A stretch of DNA of 64,000 bases from Polaribacter marinus (GTDB lineage Bacteria > Bacteroidota > Bacteroidia > Flavobacteriales > Flavobacteriaceae). The stretch is taken from the NCBI RefSeq assembly GCF_022662535.1, contig NZ_JAKQYM010000006.1, positions 1-64,000 on the forward strand. The letters run 5' to 3'. Positions 7,000 to 61,228 of this stretch are shown one piece after another. The notes beneath the pieces were generated by a model. It had not been told where the DNA came from. It saw only the letters and a program-made list of their open reading frames with translations, and made no database searches. How positions within the stretch are numbered: position 1 is the stretch's first letter; each line of letters opens with the position of its first letter. A program made the position numbers and the translations under genes.

Positions 7000-8769
7000 A
7001 TGAAGAATTTGTTAGATAACATATCAACTCCACAAGATTTACGAAAACTAAATCCAGCGCAATTACCCCAAGTTGCAAAAGAATTACGGGAATTTATTAT
7101 TGATATTATAGCAACAAAAGAAGGGCACTTAGGCGCTAGTTTAGGCGTTGTAGAATTGACGATTGCAATCCATTACTTATTTGATACTCCAAATGATTTA
7201 TTGATTTGGGATGTTGGGCATCAGGCATATGGCCATAAAATTTTAACAGGAAGAAAAGACGTTTTTCATACCAATAGACAATTTGGAGGGGTTGCTGGGT
7301 TTCCATCAAGAAAAGAAAGTAAATTTGATGCTTTTGGAGTTGGGCATTCCTCTACCTCTATTTCTGCAGCATTAGGAATGGCAATTGCATCCAACTTAAA
7401 AGGAGCAACAGAAAAACATCATATTGCAGTTATTGGAGATGCTTCTATAGCAAGCGGAATGGCTTTTGAAGCTTTGAATCACGCAGGGGTTTCTAAGGCC
7501 AACTTATTGATTGTTTTAAATGATAATGCTATTGGAATTGACCCGTCTGTTGGGGCTTTAAAAGAATATTTAACTAAGGTTAAAACAGATAAAAGACTTG
7601 CTGCTCAAAACAATATTATAAAAGCTTTAAATTTTGATTATTCCGGACCAATTGACGGTCATAACTTACCAAAATTACTTTCAGAATTAGAACGATTAAA
7701 ATCTGTAAAAGGCCCCAAATTTTTACATATAATTACAACTAAAGGAAAAGGCTTACAAAAAGCAGAAGAAGATCAAGTAACATATCATGCTCCCGGAAAA
7801 TTTGACAAAATTTCTGGAGAAAGAATTCCGAAAGAAGAAAATTTATTTACCAAGTATCAAGATGTATTTGGCAAAACAATTGTAGAGTTAGCAAAACAAA
7901 ATGAGAAAATTGTAGCCATTACACCTGCAATGTTAACAGGCAGTTCGTTAAAATTAATGCTGCAAGAGTTTCCTAAAAGAACTTTTGATGTAGGTATTGC
8001 AGAACAGCATGCTGTAACTTTAGCTGCTGGTATGGCAACCCAAGGATTAATACCATTTTGCACTATTTATTCTACCTTTTTACAACGTGCTTTTGATCAA
8101 GTAATTCACGATGTTGCTTTGCAAAATTTACCCGTCGTTTTTTGTTTAGATAGAGCTGGTTTGGTGGGGGAAGATGGAGCAACGCATCATGGAGTTTTTG
8201 ATTTGGCTTATTTAAGGATCATTCCTAATTTAATCATTTTTGCTCCAAGAAATGAAATAGAATTGCGTAATATTTTATACACTGCTCAATTGGGATTAAA
8301 AAATCCAATTGCCATTCGTTATCCAAGAGGTAAAGGAACTATTCATAATTGGCAACAAACTTTACAAAAAATAGAAATTGGTAAAGGAATTTGTTTACAA
8401 AAAGGAAATAAAACAGCTGTTTTATCTATAGGAACCATTGCTAAAAATGTTTCTGATGCATTAGAATTGATTGAAGATTCATCTAGTTTTTCTCATTATG
8501 ATATGCGTTTTGTAAAACCTTTAGATGAACAATTATTACATACTATTTTCGAAAAACATCAAACAATAATTACTGTTGAAGATGGTGTTATAAAGGGTGG
8601 GTTTGGCTCTTCTATTTTAGAATTTGCGGCAAAAAACAATTCTCCTCATCAAATAAAATCATTAGGAATTCCTGATGAATTTATTGAGCACGGAGCGATT
8701 GAAAAACTACAACACAAAATTGGTTTAGATGCTAATAGTTTAGCCAATCTATTTGAATTTTTCTCATAA
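7000..8769 (+). CDS. dxs: 1-deoxy-D-xylulose-5-phosphate synthase
   Basis: First step of the MEP isoprenoid pathway: condenses pyruvate and glyceraldehyde 3-phosphate using thiamine diphosphate. The ATG at 7000 gives 589 residues; a TTG at 6982 is in frame but overlaps a -7-like box. The N-terminal half has G-H-L-G-A-S-L-G at 42-49 and the ThDP/Mg motif G146-D-A ... L-N-D-N ending near 176. The transketolase pyrimidine domain has the catalytic-Glu motif VGIAEQHAVTLAAGMA, followed by the C-terminal transketolase domain. At 589 residues it is somewhat shorter than the 620-residue E. coli enzyme, as is usual in Bacteroidota. A strong terminator overlaps its stop codon. Confidence 0.96.
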   Translation: MKNLLDNISTPQDLRKLNPAQLPQVAKELREFIIDIIATKEGHLGASLGVVELTIAIHYLFDTPNDLLIWDVGHQAYGHKILTGRKDVFHTNRQFGGVAGFPSRKESKFDAFGVGHSSTSISAALGMAIASNLKGATEKHHIAVIGDASIASGMAFEALNHAGVSKANLLIVLNDNAIGIDPSVGALKEYLTKVKTDKRLAAQNNIIKALNFDYSGPIDGHNLPKLLSELERLKSVKGPKFLHIITTKGKGLQKAEEDQVTYHAPGKFDKISGERIPKEENLFTKYQDVFGKTIVELAKQNEKIVAITPAMLTGSSLKLMLQEFPKRTFDVGIAEQHAVTLAAGMATQGLIPFCTIYSTFLQRAFDQVIHDVALQNLPVVFCLDRAGLVGEDGATHHGVFDLAYLRIIPNLIIFAPRNEIELRNILYTAQLGLKNPIAIRYPRGKGTIHNWQQTLQKIEIGKGICLQKGNKTAVLSIGTIAKNVSDALELIEDSSSFSHYDMRFVKPLDEQLLHTIFEKHQTIITVEDGVIKGGFGSSILEFAAKNNSPHQIKSLGIPDEFIEHGAIEKLQHKIGLDANSLANLFEFFS

Positions 8770-8805
8770 AAAAAAGACATCAAAGACGTCTTTTTTTTAT
8801 GAGAA
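8761..8805. terminator. Bidirectional terminator with an 18-bp perfect stem overlapping the dxs stop
   Basis: Arms 8761-8778 and 8788-8805 are exact reverse complements (18 bases each) around a 9-base loop, with eight A on one arm and eight T on the other. The dxs stop codon lies inside the left arm. It separates dxs (+) from the convergent T9SS-cargo gene (-). Confidence 0.9.
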
Positions 8806-49532: not shown

Positions 49533-49567
49533 CCAAAAAAAACAGCATCAATAAAATTGATGCTGTT
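49533..49567 (-). terminator. Terminator of the 1311-aa T9SS cargo gene
   Basis: Hairpin with arms acagcatcaat and attgatgctgt and a T-run on the minus strand. The same hairpin with its flanks recurs at 53709-53742. Confidence 0.88.
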
Positions 49568-49625
49568 TACACAATTAAAATATAAACATTAAAACCTAAT
49601 AATTGTGATAAACTACTCTCTCTTT

Positions 49626-52600
49626 CTATTTTATTATCAGTTTTTTTGATACTGTCTTTCCTTTAGAAAAAACTTTAACAAAGTAAATTCCTTTAGATAA
49701 TTTAGAGATATCTATTTCTACAAAAGTTAAATTATCAACACTTTTTTCTACTACTATTTGACCCATAATATTATATAGATCTACTTTTTGAATTTGTTGG
49801 GTTTCTTTTAATGAAACAGCTATTTTTGAATTTGCTGGATTTGGATAAAGAAAAAGATTTTCTTTATCTGTAATTTGATTTAGGCTAGCTGTAGCTGGTG
49901 TTTTAAATTTATTTTGAGTTGTATTAGTTACAATGTAAGGGTTTTGATCAAAATAAATATAAGCAGTGTTTTCTACAATCGTGTTTTCAGTAATGGTTTT
50001 TTTTGCCTTTATTTTGTATTTAAAATAACCTTGACTTTCTATGGGGCTAGATAAGCTATCTGGTAAATAGATGTCTTGAAATAAGAATTTTTTTATGCTT
50101 TTTGTTTCGTCTCCAACTTCAGATATTTTAACGTTATGACTGCTTTCTAAAAACTTGAAAGAATTTTTATCAAAATTATCATCAATAGTATCTAATACGT
50201 AAATATCTTTGGCAGAAAAATTTCCATTATTTTGAAAACGAATAGTGTAGGTTAACCATTTTCTATCAATATCTACTTCATTAAGTTTTCCTGGAACACC
50301 TGGGGTTACTAATTTGTCATTTGGATCATATGAACTAAAAATTGGACTAAAATAAGGGCCATCGAAAAACAATTCTTTTTCGTCTCTATAAACATCATCT
50401 TCATCTAAATAAATGTCTTCTGGTTCTTCATATGGAGAAAAATCTTCATCGTCTCCTAGCCGGTTGTCATTACTTTCTGGAGTAACATCAATCCAATCTG
50501 ATAAATTAGGATTATTTCCGTTCGAAGGATTTTCCCAACTAGAAGAAGAAATGGCTGTTGGACCAAATTGAATATTATCTCCAATAGCAGTTGGATCAAA
50601 AACACCTGTTTTCACCTCTAAAACAATAGCTTCAAAAGGATCTATATTTCCTAATTCTATCTCAATAATTTTACTTCTTTCTGTGTTACTTTCTGTAAAA
50701 ACAGGATTAATATCGGTAGAAATAGTATAATTATTACTTTCTAAATTTACTTTCCAAAACTGACTTTTACCTGGATCAATATTAATTTTATTAATAATAT
50801 GATTATTACTTTGGTTATTTTTTAATCTATGTAGCGTAATAGATGCAATTGAATTAACATTATAATTTGCATTATTCTCATTTGTATTGATAAATTCGTA
50901 ACGAAGTTTAACATTGTTAAATATTTTAGAACGAGATAAGTTGCCTACTGATGTTACAAACCTATTATCAAAACCATCTCTTACAAAGCCCCAAGCGCCT
51001 TCTTTTGTAGAACCTTTTACATACAGACTTTTTAAATCTTCGTTTTTTAAATCAATATTATTATTACTATAATCTGCATCTAAATTGGTTACGTCTACTT
51101 TATAAACTCTCTTAGGTGTATAAGAAAAACCATCTGTTGAAGTTAGTGCAATTTCGTAAGTTTGATTTGCTATATAAATAGGAAATGAAAAATTCCCTTG
51201 ATTATCTGAATAAACAATAAAAGAAGAACTGCCCTTTTTAATATTTAAAGCCTGATTAGGCACAATAACATCTGTAGCCTCTTCGTAAGTTCCGTTTTCA
51301 TTAATGTCAACAAATATTTTTCCTGATGCTTTACCTCTTAAACTACTTGTTGTAGCGGCATTAACAATACCTCCAGTATCATTTACCTCTTTAAATTTTA
51401 ATAATTTAGAGAGATAAGTACCTGTAGAAGCCAACCATTTGTTTCCTTGATTATCTATAGTAAGTTTACTAAAATTCGCCAAATTTGGACCATTAGTTGT
51501 TGTTGGGTAATAAAATTCTTTAGTTGTAGGTGTAGCGTTTTGTATGTCTGAAATTTTTAATAAACCGTTAGAGCTTAAAACATATAGATTATTATCAGCA
51601 TCTATTTTAGCGTCATTAATAGTGTTTAAAGTTGGATAATCTGCCTTTAAAAGCTTGTGAGTTTCTACTTCATTTTTTAGGAAAATGACACCATTTTTAC
51701 CTATTAGCCATAACTCACTAGTGTTCGTTCCAAAAAGCAATTGTTCGATGTTTCCAATTTCAGAATGCGAATTATAATTTAAGTTTGCTAAAGCTAATAC
51801 TCCATTTGTATCTGTAACAGGATCGTACCACTTAATACTTTCAGATTGTGATGCTGATGATATAGACCATATACGCTCGTCTGGCGCTTCTGTTAAAAAG
51901 ACTAATGAACTTGAGCCAAAATCAAAATTAGAATTATTAGAAGTATAACTAACATTAGTATCTAAATTGGTTAATCTTCCTCCATTTTCATCAAAATACC
52001 ATCTATTAAAGCCTTCTACAGCAAACTTATCGCCTGATCGAAGCGAATAATTTTCTAATAAATTATTAAAGACTGGGTAATTTAGTGCTGAAAATCGATC
52101 TTCATAACTTCCGTTATTATTGATAAGGTATCTTCCATACACATTACCATTTTCATCTATTTGTCCTTTTTCTTCAAAACCACCAATATGTGTTACACCT
52201 TTTCCTATTGGTTGATTTTCAATTATATCATTTTTTAGTTTAGAGGCTACTAAAATATCTTTCCCTGAATTAGATGTAAAAGTACTAAATACAACTCCTC
52301 CTGTTTTATCTTGTTTTAAAAAACCTATTCTTCTATTGTTTCCCGTTGGAATATTGTTTTTTAATGGACTATAATGTTGCCATTCTCCATTTTCATAAAC
52401 AACTGTTCCGCCTCCTATTACCGACATGTATAACTTGTCTCCATAAGAAGCTAAATCATATACTCCCGCTTGATAACCAAAAATATAAAAATAATCTATA
52501 AAACCTTTTTGTTGAAAAAAAGCTTGGTCATAATGTTGCCAAACTGGTGTGTTATTGCTTTCAAAAGTTAGGTTATAAACGCCTATTAAATCATTAGACT

Positions 52601-53561
52601 CTTGTCTTGCAGTAAGCCAAATTTTGTTACCTACAACTTCTATTCTGTTAAATCTAACAGTGCTATTGCCAATAGTGTGTTCAAAATTTTCAAAAGTATT
52701 GTTAGTAATATCCCATTTAGATACCCCGCCTTTAGAAGCAGTTCGGTACGCAATCCATAAGTATCCATCATTATCAAAATCTAAATCTTGTAAAAAATTT
52801 GATGGTAAACCATCTGCTTCGGTAATTATTGACACATTGCCATTTACAGGATTAAAAATTAAAATCCCTTCATTATCTACTGCTAAATAAATTTTATTGT
52901 CTTGACCAATATCAATCCCACTAATAAAAATATTAGATGCAATCCCTAAATCTTGGCTATCATATTCCTCGTAAACGCCATTATGATACTTCATTAAACT
53001 ACTACCTGAAATTGCCCATACGCTATTTTTAAAAGCACCTTCGTTTTCATTTTTTTTAAATTGATTAAAGCCTCGGTTTTGATCACTAATTTGTGTAATA
53101 GTATTGTTTGTTAAACTATATTTTTGCGTGCCTTTACTTGCTCCGTGAAAAATAATATTTCCATTTCCATCGTCTATTGCTCCATAAAAAGTAGCGTATA
53201 CATTATCATCGTTAAATGCAACAAACGGAATATTACGCCACTTTTTTTGACTAATATTATATATAGAAATTCCTTTTTCTGTTGTAAATACAGTATAGTT
53301 ATCATTATTAAAAGTAAACTCATGAGAAGAAATAACATTTCCATGTGTTAATCCAAAACTTTCTGTAGTTACTCTGTCTGGACCATCACACCAAAAATAT
53401 TCTTCGGTATTGGGTTCAGATTCGTTATTAGCACATGCATTAATGTGATAGGTGAGTTTTACTCCTGGATAAAAGACTTCCCATGTTTGAGTATCGTCTA
53501 TCTGAGCTTTTAAAAAAAAACTATAAAAAAGGGTTAATAATAAAAGTAATTTTAATTTCAT
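49626..53561 (-). CDS. Large T9SS-secreted propeller protein with DUF7619-like and sorting domains
   Basis: A 1311-residue protein with signal peptide 1-20. Residues about 60-740 hold two-component-regulator-propeller-like repeats, for example D-G-L-P-S-N-F-L-Q-D-L-D-F-D-N-D-G-Y-L-W-I. A SdrD/CNA-B-like beta domain follows near 790-860 (S-G-K-I-F-V-D-I-N-E-N-G-T-Y). Residues about 1095-1225 match the DUF7619/conserved-repeat pattern (Y-T-I-R-F-Q-N-N-G-N-F-S-A-K-D-I). The end (about 1226-1311, S-K-K-L-I-I-K) is a type-A T9SS sorting domain. It has no kinase or transmembrane helix, so it is a free or surface protein. It shares promoter-upstream and 3' sequences with the next gene. Confidence 0.85.
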   Translation of the reverse strand: MKLKLLLLLTLFYSFFLKAQIDDTQTWEVFYPGVKLTYHINACANNESEPNTEEYFWCDGPDRVTTESFGLTHGNVISSHEFTFNNDNYTVFTTEKGISIYNISQKKWRNIPFVAFNDDNVYATFYGAIDDGNGNIIFHGASKGTQKYSLTNNTITQISDQNRGFNQFKKNENEGAFKNSVWAISGSSLMKYHNGVYEEYDSQDLGIASNIFISGIDIGQDNKIYLAVDNEGILIFNPVNGNVSIITEADGLPSNFLQDLDFDNDGYLWIAYRTASKGGVSKWDITNNTFENFEHTIGNSTVRFNRIEVVGNKIWLTARQESNDLIGVYNLTFESNNTPVWQHYDQAFFQQKGFIDYFYIFGYQAGVYDLASYGDKLYMSVIGGGTVVYENGEWQHYSPLKNNIPTGNNRRIGFLKQDKTGGVVFSTFTSNSGKDILVASKLKNDIIENQPIGKGVTHIGGFEEKGQIDENGNVYGRYLINNNGSYEDRFSALNYPVFNNLLENYSLRSGDKFAVEGFNRWYFDENGGRLTNLDTNVSYTSNNSNFDFGSSSLVFLTEAPDERIWSISSASQSESIKWYDPVTDTNGVLALANLNYNSHSEIGNIEQLLFGTNTSELWLIGKNGVIFLKNEVETHKLLKADYPTLNTINDAKIDADNNLYVLSSNGLLKISDIQNATPTTKEFYYPTTTNGPNLANFSKLTIDNQGNKWLASTGTYLSKLLKFKEVNDTGGIVNAATTSSLRGKASGKIFVDINENGTYEEATDVIVPNQALNIKKGSSSFIVYSDNQGNFSFPIYIANQTYEIALTSTDGFSYTPKRVYKVDVTNLDADYSNNNIDLKNEDLKSLYVKGSTKEGAWGFVRDGFDNRFVTSVGNLSRSKIFNNVKLRYEFINTNENNANYNVNSIASITLHRLKNNQSNNHIINKINIDPGKSQFWKVNLESNNYTISTDINPVFTESNTERSKIIEIELGNIDPFEAIVLEVKTGVFDPTAIGDNIQFGPTAISSSSWENPSNGNNPNLSDWIDVTPESNDNRLGDDEDFSPYEEPEDIYLDEDDVYRDEKELFFDGPYFSPIFSSYDPNDKLVTPGVPGKLNEVDIDRKWLTYTIRFQNNGNFSAKDIYVLDTIDDNFDKNSFKFLESSHNVKISEVGDETKSIKKFLFQDIYLPDSLSSPIESQGYFKYKIKAKKTITENTIVENTAYIYFDQNPYIVTNTTQNKFKTPATASLNQITDKENLFLYPNPANSKIAVSLKETQQIQKVDLYNIMGQIVVEKSVDNLTFVEIDISKLSKGIYFVKVFSKGKTVSKKLIIK

Positions 53562-53594
53562 AACAAATGTTTTAGTAGCGTATAATTTTTATCC

Positions 53595-53671
53595 CACAAA
53601 CATTAAACAATCATTAGCCTTAAAAAAGAGATATTGTATAGTTGGTCATAAATTATGTGTAAATTGTTTTT
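53595..53671 (-). promoter_or_regulatory. LytTR-like direct repeats and -7-like element of the 1311-aa gene
   Basis: An element at 53634-53671 contains half-sites whose cores start at 53645 and 53666, 21 bases apart. A 39-base comparison with 56944-56982 gives 31 identities by eye. The -7-like sequence TAATGTTTGTG (minus strand, 53595-53605) lies about 30 bases downstream of it, the same spacing as in the other gene. LytTR regulators bind such 21-22-bp-spaced repeats. Confidence 0.6.
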
Positions 53672-53708
53672 AAAATAATTAAGAAATCATTGCAACATTG
53701 AGAAAATC

Positions 53709-53742
53709 AAAAAAAACAGCATCAATAAAATTGATGCTGTTT
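53709..53742 (-). terminator. Terminator of the ELWxxDGT gene (copy of 49533-49567)
   Basis: Same hairpin, loop and flanking ttacacaattaaaa as at 49533-49567, with a T-run on the minus strand. Confidence 0.88.
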
Positions 53743-53805
53743 ACACAATTAAAAATATTACCACTAAAACCTAATAATTGTGATGAAATACTACTTTTCC
53801 TTTTC

Positions 53806-56800
53806 TTATTTGATAATCAACTTTTTTGAAACTGATGTATTATTAATGTTCGCTTTAATTATATAAATGCCCGATGATAATCTAGACACATCTAATGTTT
53901 TGTTATTTTCATCTTCTGAAGCTTTTAAAAGAACTCTCTTTCCCATTATATTATAAACTTCTATTTTTTGAATTTTATCATTATTTAATGACGAAATAGT
54001 AACAGTCGTTGATGCTGGATTTGGGTAAACATTTACTTTTAAATCTAAATTTAATAATGTTTGGTTTTCTACATTTAAAACTGCATTTTCTAATTTAAAT
54101 AGCTCCAGTCCGTATTCTAAAGTATTTGCAGAAAAATATAAATCATTTCCTAGTGCAGTTAAATTTGAAGGGTTACTACTATTTTTAAAACCAAAACTAT
54201 CTTCGCCCGGATATAGGTCTTGCACCAAAACAGTACCTGCTTCTGTACCATCAGTTTTCCATAACTCTGTACCATTTGCATCATTATTTAAGGATAAGTA
54301 TAAAATATCTCCTGCCATGGCCAAATCATTTACATATGAAAAATTGTCTAGTAGTTTTACTGTTCCTTCGTCTGTTCCATCAGATTTCCAAAGAGATTTT
54401 ACTGATCCCTCTTCATAAACAGTAAAGTATAAATTACCATTTACTAATTTTCTAAAATTTGTAAATGGAGCATATCCAGTAGAAGCTCCTTCATAAAATG
54501 CTTTAAAAATTTCTGCATTTTCACCATCATATTTCCACATTTCCTGTCCTTCTTCTCCATTTGTTGCCGCTAAAAACATTTCATCATTAATCACTATCAT
54601 ATTATTAGGATAATCAAACCCAACATATGCTGCTTCTGTACCTGCTTCTGTACCATCTGTTCTCCAAAGGTGAATGGCTCCTGTAGAATTATCGAAAACA
54701 GTAAAATATAGCTTGCTTTTATATTCTGTAAAATATGGAGGATAATTATTTCCATAAAAATCAAACTCTTTAACAAGAATTGTACCTGCTTCTGTACCAT
54801 CTGTTTTCCAAAGCGTTTTTTTATAGCTTCTAGGAAACGAAGAAGTTGCTTTTGTAGTCATAAAGTACAGATTATTATTAAATTCGAAAAAATCAGAAGG
54901 AGAGCTATCATTTTCACCTGGTTCTATATCTTTTACTAAAACAGTTCCTACATCTGTACCATCTGTTTTCCATAATTCTTTACCGTTTACTCCATCATCT
55001 GCAGCAAAAAATAATTCGTTTGTATTTTCATAATGAAAAAATGAAGAAATATTTGCAAAACCTCCAGGGTTTATTTTTGTTACAAACTCTTTACTATTTT
55101 CTAAATCTGTATAAAAAATTCCATAATCTTCTGAAAAATCTGTTGAAACAAAATATGCTTTATCTTTATATTCTGTTATTGCTTTTGGTCCTATTATTGG
55201 TCCATTATCATTATCTATAACCCAATCTGAAGTTATACCGTCAGTAGCGAATAATCTAGAGCTTCCAAAATTTGTACTATCTGCCTGTATATATAATCTA
55301 TCTAAAGCTACTGCAAAATTTGAAGGATTACTTCCGTTTGGTATTCCATTTAAATTTTTCAACATAACGGTACCAGCTTCTGTTCCGTCTGTTTTCCATA
55401 ATTCAAATCCATTAATGCCATTACTTCCATTAAAAATTAATGTGTTATTTATAACAACCGCTCCTTCCATACTTGTTCCCCAACCTCTCCCTGGATTCAT
55501 GTCTTTAATTATAACAGTACCTGCTTCGGTACCATCTGTTTGCCATAACTCTCTATTAGTATCCGTACTAAAAGCTTCAAAAACAACTTTATTATTCAAG
55601 AGAGAGAAGCCATGTATCACACCTCTACCATTATCTATAGTATTATCAGAATTTATATCTTTTATCATAAGTGTACCAACTTCGGTACCATCAGTTTTCC
55701 ATAATTCAAATCCATTAACGCCATCATTTCCAGAAAAATACATAATTCCATTTTGTACAATAGGATCAATACTAGAGAATTCAGAAATTCCAGATTCTAC
55801 TCCTGGGTTTATATCTTTTACAAGAATAGTACCTGCTTCGGTGCCATCGGTTTTCCATAGTTCTACTCCAAAATCTTCTGTATTAGCTAGAAAAAAAGTC
55901 GTTGTTGCATCAAAAGGAATAAAGTTGTTAAATATTGTTGAAGCATCTCCTGTAGAGATATTTTTAACCATTACAGTACCTGCTTCAGTTCCATCTGTTT
56001 TCCACAACTCTCTACCATTTATATTGTCATTTGCTGAAAACATTAAAGAGTTGTTATTAATAATTAAATTACCAATATCACTTCCTAAATCTCCATTGTT
56101 AATTTCTTTAAGCATTACGGTACCTGCTTCGGTACCGTCGGTTTTCCATAACTCTTCTCCTGATGTATCTGTATAAGCAGCAAAAAATAATTCGTTATTA
56201 AAAACAATAAAATCATGTGGAGAACTACTTCCTACAGGAGAAATATTTTTCAGCATTTCTGTTCCAGCTTCCGTACCGTCGGTTTTCCATAGTTCTGAAT
56301 CAAAATTCTCATCTTCACCTAAAAAATACAAGTTATCATTAAAAACAGTTAAATTGCTAGGATATTTCACATCATTGTTTACAATAGTTGTACCCGCTTC
56401 GGTACCATCTGTTTTCCATAGTTTCGTCCCAAACCAATCAGCATCCGCAGTAAAATAAAGTTCATTATTAAAAATAATAAAATTATCTGGATTTGATCCA
56501 GAATTTGGATTTGTGTTTATATCTTTAACAATAGTTGTTCCTGCTTCGGTACCATCTGTTTTAAACACTTCTGCTCCAGTATCTCCAGTTTCAAGTACAA
56601 AATACAATTCATTGTTAAAAACGATAGACTTCTCGTGCATATTAAAAATATCTGGAATATTTCCTCCTATATTTTTTGTGCCCGCTTCAGTGCCATTTGA
56701 TGCCCAAATTTCGGAACCTCCATTACCGTTATACATAAAAACGGTATAACTACCTCCATCTAATAGACTAAAAACCCAAGCATCTCCATCTGTTTGAAGA

Positions 56801-56883
56801 ATATCTTTTACCAAGGTAATTTGGGATGAAATGCTGACAGAAATAAACAGCATTAAACTAGTGATTAATGTAATTTTTTTCAT
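53806..56883 (-). CDS. T9SS-secreted ELWxxDGT-repeat protein
   Basis: A 1025-residue secreted protein: signal peptide 1-21, then about 18 repeats of roughly 45-60 residues each centred on E-L-W-K-T-D-G-T-E-A-G-T, a known repeat of secreted proteins in Bacteroidota and Myxococcota. Several repeats near 560-600 and 800 are degenerate. Residues about 936-1025 are a type-A T9SS sorting domain ending V-S-K-K-L-I-I-K. The repeats likely form a beta-propeller-like binding surface. Terminator and promoter elements match those of the 1311-aa gene. The LytTR regulator gene lies divergently, 217 bases away. Confidence 0.88.
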   Translation of the reverse strand: MKKITLITSLMLFISVSISSQITLVKDILQTDGDAWVFSLLDGGSYTVFMYNGNGGSEIWASNGTEAGTKNIGGNIPDIFNMHEKSIVFNNELYFVLETGDTGAEVFKTDGTEAGTTIVKDINTNPNSGSNPDNFIIFNNELYFTADADWFGTKLWKTDGTEAGTTIVNNDVKYPSNLTVFNDNLYFLGEDENFDSELWKTDGTEAGTEMLKNISPVGSSSPHDFIVFNNELFFAAYTDTSGEELWKTDGTEAGTVMLKEINNGDLGSDIGNLIINNNSLMFSANDNINGRELWKTDGTEAGTVMVKNISTGDASTIFNNFIPFDATTTFFLANTEDFGVELWKTDGTEAGTILVKDINPGVESGISEFSSIDPIVQNGIMYFSGNDGVNGFELWKTDGTEVGTLMIKDINSDNTIDNGRGVIHGFSLLNNKVVFEAFSTDTNRELWQTDGTEAGTVIIKDMNPGRGWGTSMEGAVVINNTLIFNGSNGINGFELWKTDGTEAGTVMLKNLNGIPNGSNPSNFAVALDRLYIQADSTNFGSSRLFATDGITSDWVIDNDNGPIIGPKAITEYKDKAYFVSTDFSEDYGIFYTDLENSKEFVTKINPGGFANISSFFHYENTNELFFAADDGVNGKELWKTDGTDVGTVLVKDIEPGENDSSPSDFFEFNNNLYFMTTKATSSFPRSYKKTLWKTDGTEAGTILVKEFDFYGNNYPPYFTEYKSKLYFTVFDNSTGAIHLWRTDGTEAGTEAAYVGFDYPNNMIVINDEMFLAATNGEEGQEMWKYDGENAEIFKAFYEGASTGYAPFTNFRKLVNGNLYFTVYEEGSVKSLWKSDGTDEGTVKLLDNFSYVNDLAMAGDILYLSLNNDANGTELWKTDGTEAGTVLVQDLYPGEDSFGFKNSSNPSNLTALGNDLYFSANTLEYGLELFKLENAVLNVENQTLLNLDLKVNVYPNPASTTVTISSLNNDKIQKIEVYNIMGKRVLLKASEDENNKTLDVSRLSSGIYIIKANINNTSVSKKLIIK

Positions 56884-56904
56884 TTTTCTAAATTTTAATT
56901 ATTA

Positions 56905-56982
56905 CACAAATATTAGGCAACTATCAACTCAAAAAAAGAAAAATTGTATAGCTGGTTCAAAATTCTGTATAACCTGTTTTTA
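56905..56982 (-). promoter_or_regulatory. LytTR-like direct repeats and -7-like element of the ELWxxDGT gene
   Basis: Half-sites with GTT cores at 56955 and 56976, exactly 21 bases apart, lie in 56944-56982, within the divergent region shared with the LytTR regulator gene. The -7-like TAATATTTGTG (minus strand, 56905-56915) follows at the same distance as in the other cargo gene. Binding by the neighbouring regulator is inferred. Confidence 0.6.
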
Positions 56983-57024
56983 GGGTGTATTTCTCCAATT
57001 ATCATCAATAAAACCCTTTTTATG

Positions 57025-57047
57025 CTTAAAAACAGGTCGTTTATACA
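57025..57047 (+). promoter_or_regulatory. Related LytTR-like half-site upstream of the regulator gene
   Basis: cttaaaaacaggt followed by ttataca resembles, in the same gene-sense orientation, the element of the ELWxxDGT gene (ctaaaaacaggttataca) but with a 3-base insertion; the second half-site is weak. It lies 30 bases upstream of the -7 element at 57077 and may mediate autoregulation. Confidence 0.45.
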
Positions 57048-57076
57048 TCAATAAAGTATATTTTAGAAATATGTTT

Positions 57077-57084
57077 TAACTTTG
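57077..57084 (+). promoter_or_regulatory. -7 element of the LytTR regulator gene
   Basis: TAACTTTG matches TAnnTTTG, 17 bases upstream of the ATG at 57101. No TTG at -33, as expected for an activator-dependent promoter. Confidence 0.5.
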
Positions 57085-57100
57085 AGAAAATTGATGAATA

Positions 57101-57835
57101 ATGATTAAAGCTGTAATTATAGATGATGAACCTAAAGCTGTACAAGGTTTAACTTGGGAATTATCTAACTTTAAAGATGAATTAGAAGTTGTTGCAACAT
57201 TTACAGAACCCGAAAAAGCAATACCTTATTTAAAATCATCTCAAATAGATTGCCTATTTTTAGACATAGAAATGCCAACTATGGATGGGTTTCAATTTTT
57301 AGAAAAGCTAGATAAAAAAGATTTTGCTGTAGTAATTACTACCGCTTATAACGAATACGCAATTACTGCTTTAAAAAAAGAAGCTATAGATTATTTATTA
57401 AAGCCTATTGATACGGATGATTTAAGAGAGACTATTTCTAAAATTAAAAAATATATTTCTAAAGGTTTTAACTCTGATAAATTTGAAGAAATTTTATTAC
57501 AGTTTAACAACAAATTAAATCATAAAAAAATAACAATTAATACTGATGGTAAATTGGTGTTTTTAGAACCAAAAGATATTTTTCATGTTGCTTCAGACGG
57601 AAATTATTCTACCTTATATCTTTCTGATAACAAAAAAATTGTAATCACAAAAAAACTCAAAGAAATTGATGAATTACTTCCAACAGATCATTTTTTTAGA
57701 ATACACAATTCTTACATTATCAATTTAAATAAAATAAAAGAGTTTTTAAAATCTGATGGGTATGTAATTTTAGAAAACAACACTAAAATACCTGTTTCTA
57801 GACAGCGAAAATCCGAATTTTTAGAAAAGCTTTAA
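57101..57835 (+). CDS. LytTR-type response regulator
   Basis: A 244-residue response regulator. Receiver domain about 1-120: acidic pocket D8-D9, phosphoacceptor D55 in L-F-L-D-I-E-M-P, T80/T81 and K101 in L-L-K-P-I-D. LytTR DNA-binding domain about 143-244 with F-F-R-I-H-N-S-Y-I-I-N and the end P-V-S-R-Q-R-K. LytTR proteins bind paired direct repeats one or two helical turns apart. It precedes two LytS-type kinases (20 bases before the first) and is divergent from the ELWxxDGT gene, with a shared regulatory region. Confidence 0.94.
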   Translation: MIKAVIIDDEPKAVQGLTWELSNFKDELEVVATFTEPEKAIPYLKSSQIDCLFLDIEMPTMDGFQFLEKLDKKDFAVVITTAYNEYAITALKKEAIDYLLKPIDTDDLRETISKIKKYISKGFNSDKFEEILLQFNNKLNHKKITINTDGKLVFLEPKDIFHVASDGNYSTLYLSDNKKIVITKKLKEIDELLPTDHFFRIHNSYIINLNKIKEFLKSDGYVILENNTKIPVSRQRKSEFLEKL

Positions 57836-57855: not shown

Positions 57856-59772
57856 ATGGTAAAATTTTTAATCCTTTTTTTTTCGATTATTTTTTCTGTA
57901 AATGCACAGAAAAACAAACCTGAATTTACTATACAAATAGATAGCGTTCTTAAAACAAAGCCAATTACATATAAAGGTATTAATAAATTCTTACGTCCTT
58001 TTAGAAGAGATACCACCAAACTAAAAGGCTTAATTACAATCTTTAAAGAAAACAATTATTTAGACGGAAAAACCTATGTGGAAAACCTTTTAGGAATTCA
58101 ATACAGAAACTTTTCTCACTATCAAAAAGCAATTACGATTCATAAACAAGCACTAGAAACTGCCAAAAAAGCTAATAGTATAGAGTTTAAAGTTTTTAGT
58201 TTAAATATGTTAGGTGTAGATTACAGAAAAATAGATGCAAACAGAACCGCGTTAGATTATAATTACGAAGCTTTAAAATTAGCAGAAACTGTAGATAATC
58301 CAAGTTTAGGATTGCGCAGAAGTATTGCTGTTTCTTTAAACAGTATGGGTAATATTTATTTACTTTTAAAACAATACAGCTTAGCTATAGAGCGGTTTAA
58401 GAAATCTCAAGAAATAGAAAGAAGTATAAATAACAAATTGGGGTTGGCTATTAATTACCAAAACATTGGCTATGCAAAAGATGCTCAAGGAAAAACAGAA
58501 GAAGCCTTAGATTACTTTAAAAAATCTTTAAACTTAAATAATAAACTTAAAAATACTTACGGACAAATAATTTGTAAAAGTAGTATTGCTAATCTTTACA
58601 TAAAACAAGGTAAACCTCAAAAAGCCATCAACCTTATTAAAGAAAATATAGAAACAGCAGAAAAAATGGGGAACATAGAATACTTAGCTTATGAGTATTT
58701 AAGTTTAGGATGGGCGCAATCTAGATTAAATCAATTTTCTGAGGCAGAAACAAATTTAAATAAAGGATTAAAAATTGCTAAAAAACACAATTTTTCTTCG
58801 GCTTTGTCTTATGCTTATAGCCATTTTTCTGAGTTATATCAAAGTAAAAAAGACTATAAAAGTGCTTTAAAATATTATAAGATTTCCGAAAACTTTGAAA
58901 ACACTATTTCTAACGAAAGAACTATTCAATATGTTAACGATTTAATTATAAAGTACGATAGTGAACGACAAGACAATGAAATAAAAAATCTTGCAAAACA
59001 GAACGAAATTACTCAACTAAAGCTTATAAAAAATAGAAATATTTGGATTATTATTATAGTAACCCTAACATTATTTATAGCTGTTTTGTATTTCTTATAT
59101 AGACAACGTTTATTAAAAAAGGAAAAAAGAATTTTGACATTAGAACAAGATGTTTTGCGTACGCAAATGAATCCACATTTTATTTTTAATGCCTTAAATT
59201 CTATTAAGCATTACATCATAAATAACGAACAAAAAAACGCCGTTCATTACTTAAACAAATTCTCTAAACTGGTAAGAAAAATTTTAGAATCTTCAACCTT
59301 AAAAGAAGTTTCGTTACAAGAAGAGTTAGAAACCATGGATTTGTATATGAACATAGAAAATATTCGTTTTTCTAATGAAATAAATTTTGAAATAAATGTA
59401 GATAATACTTTAGATTTATCTACCATAAATGTACCTCCATTAGTGTTACAACCATTTTTAGAAAATGCTTTATGGCATGGGTTATCCTCTAAAAAAGGTG
59501 ATAAAAAAATAACTTTATCTGTTTTTAAACCTTCTAAAGATTTTATTGAAATAAATATCGAAGACAATGGAATTGGTAGAAAAGCATCTGCAAAAATAAA
59601 ATCTAATAAATTTATTAATAGAAAATCTATTGGTATCAAATTAACTAAAGAACGCTTGCATAACTTTATCAAAGATTTTAAAAACCCCTTTTCTTTAGTT
59701 TTTAATGATTTAATTAATGACGATAAAACATCTAGGGGAACCAAAGTTGCCTTAAAAATACCTCTAAAATAA
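57856..59772 (+). CDS. LytS-family sensor histidine kinase with TPR input domain
   Basis: A 638-residue kinase. Signal peptide 1-18 (ends V-N-A-Q). Residues about 75-375 form tetratricopeptide repeats in the periplasm (for example G-N-I-Y-L-L-L-K-Q-Y-S-L-A-I). A TM helix lies at about 395-415. The His_kinase domain has H441 in Q-M-N-P-H-F-I-F-N-A-L-N-S-I-K and the HATPase part has I-E-D-N-G-I-G-R. The kinase core is nearly identical to that of the next gene. With the LytTR regulator it forms a complete two-component system. TPRs suggest that it senses a protein or peptide partner; ligand unknown. Confidence 0.93.
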   Translation: MVKFLILFFSIIFSVNAQKNKPEFTIQIDSVLKTKPITYKGINKFLRPFRRDTTKLKGLITIFKENNYLDGKTYVENLLGIQYRNFSHYQKAITIHKQALETAKKANSIEFKVFSLNMLGVDYRKIDANRTALDYNYEALKLAETVDNPSLGLRRSIAVSLNSMGNIYLLLKQYSLAIERFKKSQEIERSINNKLGLAINYQNIGYAKDAQGKTEEALDYFKKSLNLNNKLKNTYGQIICKSSIANLYIKQGKPQKAINLIKENIETAEKMGNIEYLAYEYLSLGWAQSRLNQFSEAETNLNKGLKIAKKHNFSSALSYAYSHFSELYQSKKDYKSALKYYKISENFENTISNERTIQYVNDLIIKYDSERQDNEIKNLAKQNEITQLKLIKNRNIWIIIIVTLTLFIAVLYFLYRQRLLKKEKRILTLEQDVLRTQMNPHFIFNALNSIKHYIINNEQKNAVHYLNKFSKLVRKILESSTLKEVSLQEELETMDLYMNIENIRFSNEINFEINVDNTLDLSTINVPPLVLQPFLENALWHGLSSKKGDKKITLSVFKPSKDFIEINIEDNGIGRKASAKIKSNKFINRKSIGIKLTKERLHNFIKDFKNPFSLVFNDLINDDKTSRGTKVALKIPLK

Positions 59773-59773
59773 A

Positions 59774-61228
59774 ATGGAAATTATTTTTCAAGACTTTTCT
59801 ATTTGGCTTCAAGGAATGCTTTTTATTTTAATTGCATACCATACAAGCACTTACTTTTTTACAAAAGATAAGAGTTTTGTAGTTTACGCATTTTATTTAT
59901 TGTTGCTTACTATTTATTTAATTCCTAAAACAAATAGTAAAACCTCAGACTATTTAACCAGTCATTATTCTACTTTTTTTAAAACCTTTAATTGGATTAT
60001 TCAAATCTGGTTTTGGCTAGTTTATACTTGGTTTTCTTTACTTTTTCTAGATGTAAAAAATAAAAGTAAGAAATGGTTTACTATAATGAAAAACTACATA
60101 AAAATTACATTTATAGTAACACTTACCTTCTTTTTAATAGATGTTATCTTTTTAGAAAACACTTATACAGAAAGGTTTTTTATTTATTTTTATACACCAA
60201 TTTCGCTAAGTGTAGTAAGTGCTTTTCTATATGTAATATACATGTTTAAAAATCCACTCAATAAAATTTATGTTATTGGATTAACCACATACCTAACCTT
60301 TTCATTACTTTCTTTATATTTTTCTATAAACAGAGGTTCTTTTATAGAAGAATACATGCTACCCATACACATTTTTATGGTGGGTATTTCTTTAGAAGCG
60401 CTTATTTTTTCTGTTGGATTGGGTTATAAATATCATATCTATAGACAAGAAAGAGACAATTATAATCGTCAATTAATAAATGAGCTACAAAAAAATGAGC
60501 AACTAAAAGACCAACTAAATCAAAAATTGTCAGAAAAAGTAAAAGATCATAAACTTGCAGAAATAGAAGCTTTGTATGAAAATCAAATAAACGAGTTAAA
60601 GCTAACGAGTTTATTAAGTCAAATGAATCCGCATTTTATTTTTAATGCCTTAAATTCTATTAAATTATATATTATAAATAACGAATCTAAAATAGCAGCA
60701 CATTATTTAAATAAATTCTCGAAATTAATTAGAAAAATTTTAGAAGCATCAACCTCAAAAGAAGTTTCATTACAAGAAGAATTAGAAACAATGGATTTAT
60801 ATATGACTATAGAAAACATTCGTTTTTCTAATGAAATAGATTTTAATATTAGTGTAGATGAAAATATTAATCTTACGGCTATTAAAGTACCTCCATTAAT
60901 GCTTCAACCTTTTTTAGAAAATGCTCTTTGGCATGGATTATCTTCTAAAAAATCTGATAAAAAAATTATGCTTTCTATTAATAAAAAAGATAAAACACAC
61001 ATTCAAATTACCATAGAAGATAATGGAATTGGCAGAGAAAGATCTGCAAAAATAAAATTAGAAAAATCTATAAAAAGAAAATCTATAGGAATAAGCTTAA
61101 CAAAAGATAGGCTTACAAATTTTGTAACAACCTTAAAAAATGATTTTTCTATTACTTATGAAGACTTATTTGATAAAAACAAAAAAGCTATAGGAACAAA
61201 GGTTATTTTAAAAATTCCTTTATTTTAA
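59774..61228 (+). CDS. LytS-family sensor histidine kinase with multi-TM input domain
   Basis: A 484-residue kinase beginning one base after the previous stop. Residues 1-215 hold about seven hydrophobic helices, similar to 7TM sensor (7TMR-DISM-like) modules but without an extracellular domain. A coiled coil follows (about 220-275). The catalytic His is H287 in Q-M-N-P-H-F-I-F-N-A-L-N-S-I-K, and I-E-D-N-G-I-G-R is in the ATPase. The core matches the previous kinase at most positions, so a kinase-core duplication joined to a new sensor is likely. Both kinases probably phosphorylate the same regulator or form mixed dimers. Confidence 0.92.
   Translation: MEIIFQDFSIWLQGMLFILIAYHTSTYFFTKDKSFVVYAFYLLLLTIYLIPKTNSKTSDYLTSHYSTFFKTFNWIIQIWFWLVYTWFSLLFLDVKNKSKKWFTIMKNYIKITFIVTLTFFLIDVIFLENTYTERFFIYFYTPISLSVVSAFLYVIYMFKNPLNKIYVIGLTTYLTFSLLSLYFSINRGSFIEEYMLPIHIFMVGISLEALIFSVGLGYKYHIYRQERDNYNRQLINELQKNEQLKDQLNQKLSEKVKDHKLAEIEALYENQINELKLTSLLSQMNPHFIFNALNSIKLYIINNESKIAAHYLNKFSKLIRKILEASTSKEVSLQEELETMDLYMTIENIRFSNEIDFNISVDENINLTAIKVPPLMLQPFLENALWHGLSSKKSDKKIMLSINKKDKTHIQITIEDNGIGRERSAKIKLEKSIKRKSIGISLTKDRLTNFVTTLKNDFSITYEDLFDKNKKAIGTKVILKIPLF

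Follow-up and report, generated by a model that had tools for sequence, protein, structure and literature searches.

In this study, a 64,000-nucleotide stretch of Polaribacter marinus DNA (contig NZ_JAKQYM010000006.1, positions 1 to 64,000; hereafter the window) was analysed, in which the gene of a LytTR response regulator lies divergent from two genes for large proteins carrying sorting domains of the type IX secretion system (T9SS). We believe it very probable that this regulator activates the two T9SS cargo genes through a tandem operator, and that the arrangement is the local form of a switch spread through the family Flavobacteriaceae.

The regions upstream of the gene for the 1311-amino-acid (aa) cargo protein and of the ELWxxDGT gene carry one element (53634-53672 and 56944-56982), with 31 of 39 bases identical in the alignment within the window and the half-site cores 21 bp apart in both, so the common 39-base element and the 21-base distance claimed in a preliminary description of this DNA were borne out. 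With a profile built from 48 loci, among them the ELWxxDGT-gene site itself, the two operators scored 33.7 and 31.9, and the third-best position in the window scored 14.9. The pattern CMRNYYRYACA-N10-CMRNYYRYACA, which was composed after the family had been inspected, had two exact matches in the 3.39-Mb genome, namely both window operators, and its reversed control had none. When up to two mismatches were allowed, 22 sites and 5 control matches were found. A looser pattern, tried before this one, found as many sites as control matches at one mismatch (3 each), so only the exact-match level discriminates. The sites added in the P. marinus genome at one mismatch were C33:103101 and C33:306772, and the latter (profile score 28.4) lies ahead of a T9SS-tailed FG-GAP gene that is apparently frameshifted. 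In this FG-GAP gene (L054:5103-6770), the start region is in another frame after a run of 11 A; the gene seems interrupted, which may reflect a pseudogene, phase variation or an assembly error.

The conservation of the element was evaluated at 48 loci: the window, 16 same-genus regulator orthologues at 67-90% identity (59 genomes, in which one further orthologue stood at 48%), and 31 clear orthologue loci at 63-84% identity among the 80 loci listed in a wider genome scan. The listed orthologue loci include members of Polaribacter, Tenacibaculum, Gelidibacter, Winogradskyella, Maribacter, Mangrovimonas, Arenibacter, Eudoraea, Allomuricauda, Hanstruepera, Lacinutrix, Olleya, Paucihalobacter and Robiginitalea. 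The preliminary description had proposed to look for relatives that keep the gene cluster and lack the element; the element was kept upstream of the regulator in 48/48 loci, with 33-bp profile scores of 23.5-38.7 against a shuffled maximum of 14.0, this profile having been trained on the loci that it scores. As a held-out test, a profile from the window and the 16 same-genus loci recovered 31/31 loci of the wider scan (16.3-38.7), and in 897 control windows of the same loci the 99th percentile was 8.3 and two windows exceeded 12, both of them preceding DUF4412 genes. Operator-like sites beyond the kinase gene were seen at L058:13508 and L067:13460, each before a second-type DUF4412 gene (Pfam). 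The mean majority base over the 48 loci was 0.84 in the half-sites, 0.49 in the spacer and 0.46 in the flanks.

The promoter geometry was kept together with the element. Both window promoters have a -7-like box, placed 30 bp downstream of the proximal half-site, in agreement with the equal distance of about 30 bases claimed earlier. Over the 48 loci, the match to the -7 box, computed by offset without a tie-break, was 4.38 of 6 at 30 bp, 3.15 at 29 bp and at most 2.77 elsewhere; with a tie-break favouring 30, the best match lay 29-31 bp downstream in 43/48 loci, and three columns of the box were conserved at 0.85-0.96. Every column between the element and the box reached at most 0.62, which fits promoters that have no fixed -33 hexamer, and by eye no TTG was seen in the -33 regions of the window. 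Taking the -7 box as -12 to -5, as given for Flavobacterium sigma-A promoters in one report (PMC9723704), the operator would be centred near -59.

Among 166 same-genus genomes, 89 exact element sites were found in 70 genomes, compared with one site for the reversed control. Regulator orthologues were present in 84 of the 166 (E<=1e-85), and the exact element occurred in 67 of these 84 and in 3 of the 82 others, a co-occurrence that is not adjusted for common descent and that follows in part from linkage itself. Our own tally of the coordinates places roughly 65 of the 89 sites no more than about 0.5 kb from the regulator and 3 others at up to a few kb; 18 have no linkage to it, and 3 are in genomes that do not carry it. 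Since most exact sites are near the regulator, the putative regulon, judged by exact matches, appears to be small and largely confined to the regulator's neighbourhood. The element-bearing genomes without the regulator were G009, G011 and G460 (fragmented assembly); the G009 site is inside a coding frame and was taken as chance.

We propose the following sequence of events for the switch. The LytTR regulator would be signalled by the adjacent TPR histidine kinase or kinases and would bind two direct half-sites with a gene-sense consensus of about ACCATTTATACA, a 21-bp period and a centre near -59. From there it would recruit RNA polymerase to promoters in which a -7 box is present and a conserved -33 hexamer is missing. 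In the window, it would switch on two T9SS-exported proteins, divergent from the regulator and each forming its own unit, probably also the unlinked T9SS-tail gene in C33, and the regulator operon may be weakly self-activated. Activation from a tandem operator is the most likely reading, as for other LytTR proteins in a published account (PMC4847170), which describes LytTR sites as two repeats of 9-11 nt with spacers of 11-13 nt. The window would then be one form of a family-wide switch in which regulator, operator and promoter geometry are kept and the controlled product is replaced: a DUF4412-type protein with variable T9SS cargo, a putative non-coding RNA, a small membrane peptide or an amphipathic peptide. 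The self-contained LytTR regulon over two cargo genes put forward in the preliminary description is strongly supported by the comparison as to the regulon, but 'self-contained' may be too narrow, because the C33:306772 site precedes another T9SS-tail gene.

Several points weigh against this reading, in addition to the ancestry and linkage behind the co-occurrence figures. Binding, activation, the kinase pairing and the signal are what we infer from the element's observed sequence, geometry, conservation, co-occurrence and unlinked copies. Two half-sites stand 21 bp apart in 48/48 loci, a direct repeat within the range of about 20-24 bp, but this is no independent result, because the profile and the pattern were fixed at 21 bp and alternatives to this period were weighed only at sites that had been picked with it. 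The best -7 match fell outside 29-31 bp in 5/48 loci. Exact matches were lacking in 17 of the 84 regulator genomes; the 11 of these that were examined, which are all but G415, G434, G435, G470, G473 and G477, had an inexact site of at least 18.1. A LytTR paralogue could be the binder, because the regulator query had 28 matches in the P. marinus genome, some of them maybe receiver domains only. Lastly, G011, whose best regulator match is only 43% identical, has the element at the syntenic position, ahead of a DUF4412-like gene (L153:6376-7199).

The last two points speak for a rival reading, in which the element is bound by another protein, either such a paralogue or a different activator, and the regulator next to it is incidental. 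We consider this explanation unlikely: the exact element tracks this particular orthologue across the 166 genomes, it adjoins the orthologue at all 48 loci, often in two copies and in both directions, and when the 80 loci of the wider scan were scanned whole, scores of at least 17 were found in the 31 orthologue loci and in only 4 of the 49 others (L085, L088, L089 and L098). The sign of the element's effect is not fixed by sequence, and the element might be used for repression rather than activation. This too is improbable in our opinion, as the inferred centre near -59 and the missing -33 hexamer fit activation, and direct repeats centred near -60 are the sites from which AgrA activates (PMC4227749). 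That the likeness of the two window elements merely reflects a recent duplication of the cargo unit without function, as the near-copy promoters and 3' untranslated regions (UTRs) of both cargo genes might suggest, is very improbable, for duplication may have created the second site, yet it leaves unexplained that half-sites and not flanks are conserved over 48 loci and that unlinked small RNA copies carry the half-sites.

Autoregulation of the regulator, raised as a possibility in the preliminary description, is less well supported in the window than the local regulon of activated cargo genes. The related half-site claimed before the regulator gene is present at 57036-57047, followed 29 bp further on by TAACTTTG at 57077-57084, but the half-site 21 bp upstream of it matches poorly, and together the two score 4.0, which is a weak site. 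Across the family, a sense-oriented second element with the same spacing and a score of at least 8.3 precedes the regulator in 29 of 46 loci, two of the 48 being too short to score, the threshold coming from the 17-locus profile and the count from the 48-locus profile. In all 29 loci the best -7 match was at 29 or 30 bp. Tenacibaculum-like loci had no such sense-oriented element. In L045 and L046, the element was found 51-57 bp before the regulator start, and the divergent side had neither a recognisable -7 box at the usual distance nor a recognisable product, so that no clear target could be assigned.

The products behind the element were compared in the closest relatives. In the regulator tree, the window clustered with L031-L035 and an uncultured Polaribacter (100/100); L276-L284 are outside this tree and were placed near the window by 77-89% regulator identity, and L055 and L281 are from one genome (G469). 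A DUF4412-type protein was directly behind the element in 11 of the 14 loci L031-L035 and L276-L284. The call was supported by Pfam in eight (L031, L033, L034, L276-L278, L280 and L281); L032 and L035 only resemble the type and L283 has 31% BLAST identity, these three having no Pfam match. L282 had no DUF4412-type gene, and the sequence is truncated in L279 and L284. Farther on in the same direction come large secreted genes of varying kind (DUF7619, LRR, ELWxxDGT), and a T9SS sorting domain was found in 12 of the 13 cargo open reading frames (ORFs) scanned in 10 relatives, the thirteenth, in L283, being truncated at its end. Counted by locus, 10 of the 12 close-relative loci with a readable divergent side had, behind the element, a gene in which Pfam finds a T9SS sorting domain; L282 had no such gene and the L283 gene is cut by the contig end. 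G015 has its own ELWxxDGT-type gene, and a second element (31.2) lies 113 bp upstream of it. Behind the element in the window there is no DUF4412 gene, and each cargo gene has an element of its own. In another part of G015 (L152:2154-8046), an exact element stands before a 52-aa lipoprotein-like ORF; genes resembling a kinase and a response regulator come next, then another large secreted gene.

In Tenacibaculum-like genomes, the element faces a putative transcript of about 95 nt with a near-invariant, G-rich GGGGAAUCAU...UGGGGGAUUAAUCA core and a terminator hairpin. This putative small RNA (sRNA) was found at L037-L043 and L056 and in G364, G374 and G399 (L189-L201), with 4-5 copies in each of these three genomes. 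At the Rfam gathering threshold, the divergent RNA matched no family in the 8 loci scanned; the four matches obtained there were a pair of tRNAs in L037 and, in the single locus L043, a pair of Flavo-1 RNAs (RF01705) at L043:538-623 and 8699-8782. A hidden ORF was rejected, as no ORF of at least 25 aa was kept over the core and a one-base gap within this core sets L037 and L039 apart from the others. Covariation did not serve as proof of structure: two-sided change was seen in 6/27 pairs and the RNAalifold covariation term was unfavourable (+0.97), therefore the fold is predicted and not proven.

A model of this RNA matched 53/166 same-genus genomes at E<=0.01 and 39 at E<1e-3; the latter comprise 37 of the 84 genomes with the regulator and 2 (G026 and G357) of the 82 without it. 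A family-wide search with the model (299 genomes, 236 genera) gave four weak matches that look like ordinary terminators. An element of at least 14 was present at 44 of the 46 distinct RNA copies examined, 7 of which had helped build the model, and the best site was 41-46 bp before the model start in 41/46. The low-scoring copies were L200 (12.2) and L208 (none), whose genome G026 does not carry the regulator. Ten copies in G364, G374 and G399 are unlinked to the regulator, and 9 of them score at least 19.5.

Small peptides were found behind the element in other clades and at unlinked sites. In Maribacter, Allomuricauda, Arenibacter and relatives, ORFs whose start resembles MKKC or MRKC (39-65 aa), putatively small membrane peptides, occupy the divergent side in 13 loci (L060-L086). 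The 18 unlinked exact sites precede a 33-aa cationic amphipathic peptide (for example MKKKLLKGIQNFFKNILARLAEFGKAAGYAINH) in 9 cases, sRNA copies in 2 and a 52-aa lipoprotein-like ORF in 1, and 6 are unclear. Members of this peptide family are 33-34 aa long, cationic and amphipathic, end in (S/G)YAI(N/R)(H/N) and sometimes form tandem arrays (L209-L213, L216-L218, L225-L267). Related peptides were found at a lax E<=0.1 in 47 of the 166 same-genus genomes, and none in the P. marinus genome. The 32 peptide ORFs that were read came from selected loci and a motif filter and not from all 47 genomes; 17 had an element of at least 14, and the rest had none, many of them in arrays. Nine of the 32 were first met through the element, and 8 of the other 23 score at least 14. 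Pfam and NCBIfam gave nothing over cut-off for the peptides. By eye, some peptide leaders share AAGGGGAAT with the 5' end of the sRNA.

When the target classes were placed on the regulator tree, at least 6 changes were needed, compared with 21.4 in shuffles; the labels were assigned by hand, 'sRNA' meaning no ORF, a hairpin and a T-run, and only the Tenacibaculum-like type among them is backed by the model. From this pattern the operator appears to have stayed while its product changed a few times.

The layout resembles the Staphylococcus agr system (AgrA, P2/P3, RNAIII, PSMs), with which it shares a LytTR response regulator, two direct repeats centred about -60, divergent promoters of the regulator operon and of a non-coding RNA (here putative, in Tenacibaculum-like genomes) and short amphipathic peptides at unlinked promoters (PMC4227749). 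Unlike in agr, the kinase here is of the TPR PF06580 type and the product in the window clade is T9SS cargo, not RNA. The agr-style divergent layout is divided among clades, the putative sRNA being in Tenacibaculum-like loci and the sense element only in others. By NCBIfam, the regulator scored 39.5 bits for AgrA against a cut-off of 400. AgrB was found in 0/6 genomes searched, and 14 control genomes were also below cut-off, so sensitivity is not shown. The RNA and the peptides had no family match over cut-off in Rfam, Pfam and NCBIfam. We claim no homology to RNAIII or PSMs, and the parallels concern layout. We regard it as an even chance that the Flavobacteriaceae have an agr-like switch, in which LytTR and the 21-bp operator would control dispersed non-coding RNAs and PSM-like 33-aa peptides in Tenacibaculum-like genomes and would have been rewired to T9SS proteins in the window lineage and to membrane peptides in Maribacter and Allomuricauda.

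Other known systems were also compared. YpdA/YpdB and BtsS/BtsR of E. coli are likewise LytS/LytTR-type pairs with tandem direct repeats and very few targets; YpdB has one target (PMC4847170). The best NCBIfam match of our regulator was BtsR (128 bits, below the cut-off of 246). In contrast to these pairs, the sensor here has TPR repeats, the operator is unlike GGCATTTCAT, and the targets are T9SS cargo, RNA or peptides, varying by clade. The flavobacterial sRNA Rfp18 of Flavobacterium psychrophilum, tied to protease expression in one report (PMC9723704), is set beside the RNA here by description and not by sequence. None of the 31 clear orthologue loci among the 80 listed was titled Flavobacterium.

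PorX/PorY is a two-component control that touches the T9SS; to our knowledge it involves neither a LytTR regulator nor a cargo-specific tandem operator, and we know of few Bacteroidota LytTR regulators with a known operator or target. No prior description of this regulator, operator, RNA or peptide was found in titles and abstract openings, most subscription journals and bioRxiv being outside the search. The comparison would supply one LytTR regulator with an exactly defined operator, the geometry of its promoters and a small set of targets, tie the control of T9SS cargo to a putative circuit of non-coding RNA and peptides in related genera, and provide an example of a conserved operator whose product has been exchanged in evolution.

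The features of the window locus are collected in Table 1. The regulator combines receiver and LytTR domains, and two histidine kinase genes, K1 and K2, adjoin it. A K1 relative adjoins the regulator in 31/31 orthologue loci among the 80 listed in the wider scan; K2 is adjacent in the five relatives L031-L035 and is not next in L278 and L281.

Table 1. Features of the LytTR regulator locus in the P. marinus window
Feature	Position	Strand	Support or detail
Terminator hairpin, 3' UTR of 1311-aa gene	49541..49568	-	local alignment
1311-aa secreted protein, T9SS cargo	49626..53561	-	DUF7619 PF24595 8.1e-38; T9SS type A sorting domain PF18962 4.1e-16; TIGR04183
-7-like box AATGTTTG	53597..53604	-	30 bp downstream of proximal half-site, 1311-aa gene promoter
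Tandem operator of 1311-aa gene	53634..53672	-	half-sites 53635-53646 and 53656-53667, 21-bp period
Matching terminator hairpin, 3' UTR of ELWxxDGT gene	53715..53742	-	local alignment
1025-aa ELWxxDGT-repeat protein, T9SS cargo	53806..56883	-	TIGR04534 4.7e-209; TIGR04183; PF18962 2.3e-18
-7-like box AATATTTG	56907..56914	-	30 bp downstream of proximal half-site, ELWxxDGT gene promoter
Tandem operator of ELWxxDGT gene	56944..56982	-	half-sites 56945-56956 and 56966-56977
Sense-oriented site before regulator	57015..57047	+	distal half-site 57015-57026 poor, proximal 57036-57047 good
LytTR response regulator, proposed activator	57101..57835	+	Response_reg PF00072 2e-23; LytTR PF04397 1.4e-22
K1, TPR sensor histidine kinase	57856..59772	+	His_kinase PF06580 (Pfam)
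K2, 7TMR-DISM histidine kinase	59774..61228	+	PF06580 (Pfam)

Both cargo proteins of the window end in a C-terminal T9SS sorting domain (PF18962 / TIGR04183). Because matching terminators stand behind both genes, they appear to form two separate transcription units. The 3' UTRs (49541-49640 and 53715-53815) are near copies with the same hairpin and the coding sequences differ, as though coding sequences had been swapped between fixed ends.

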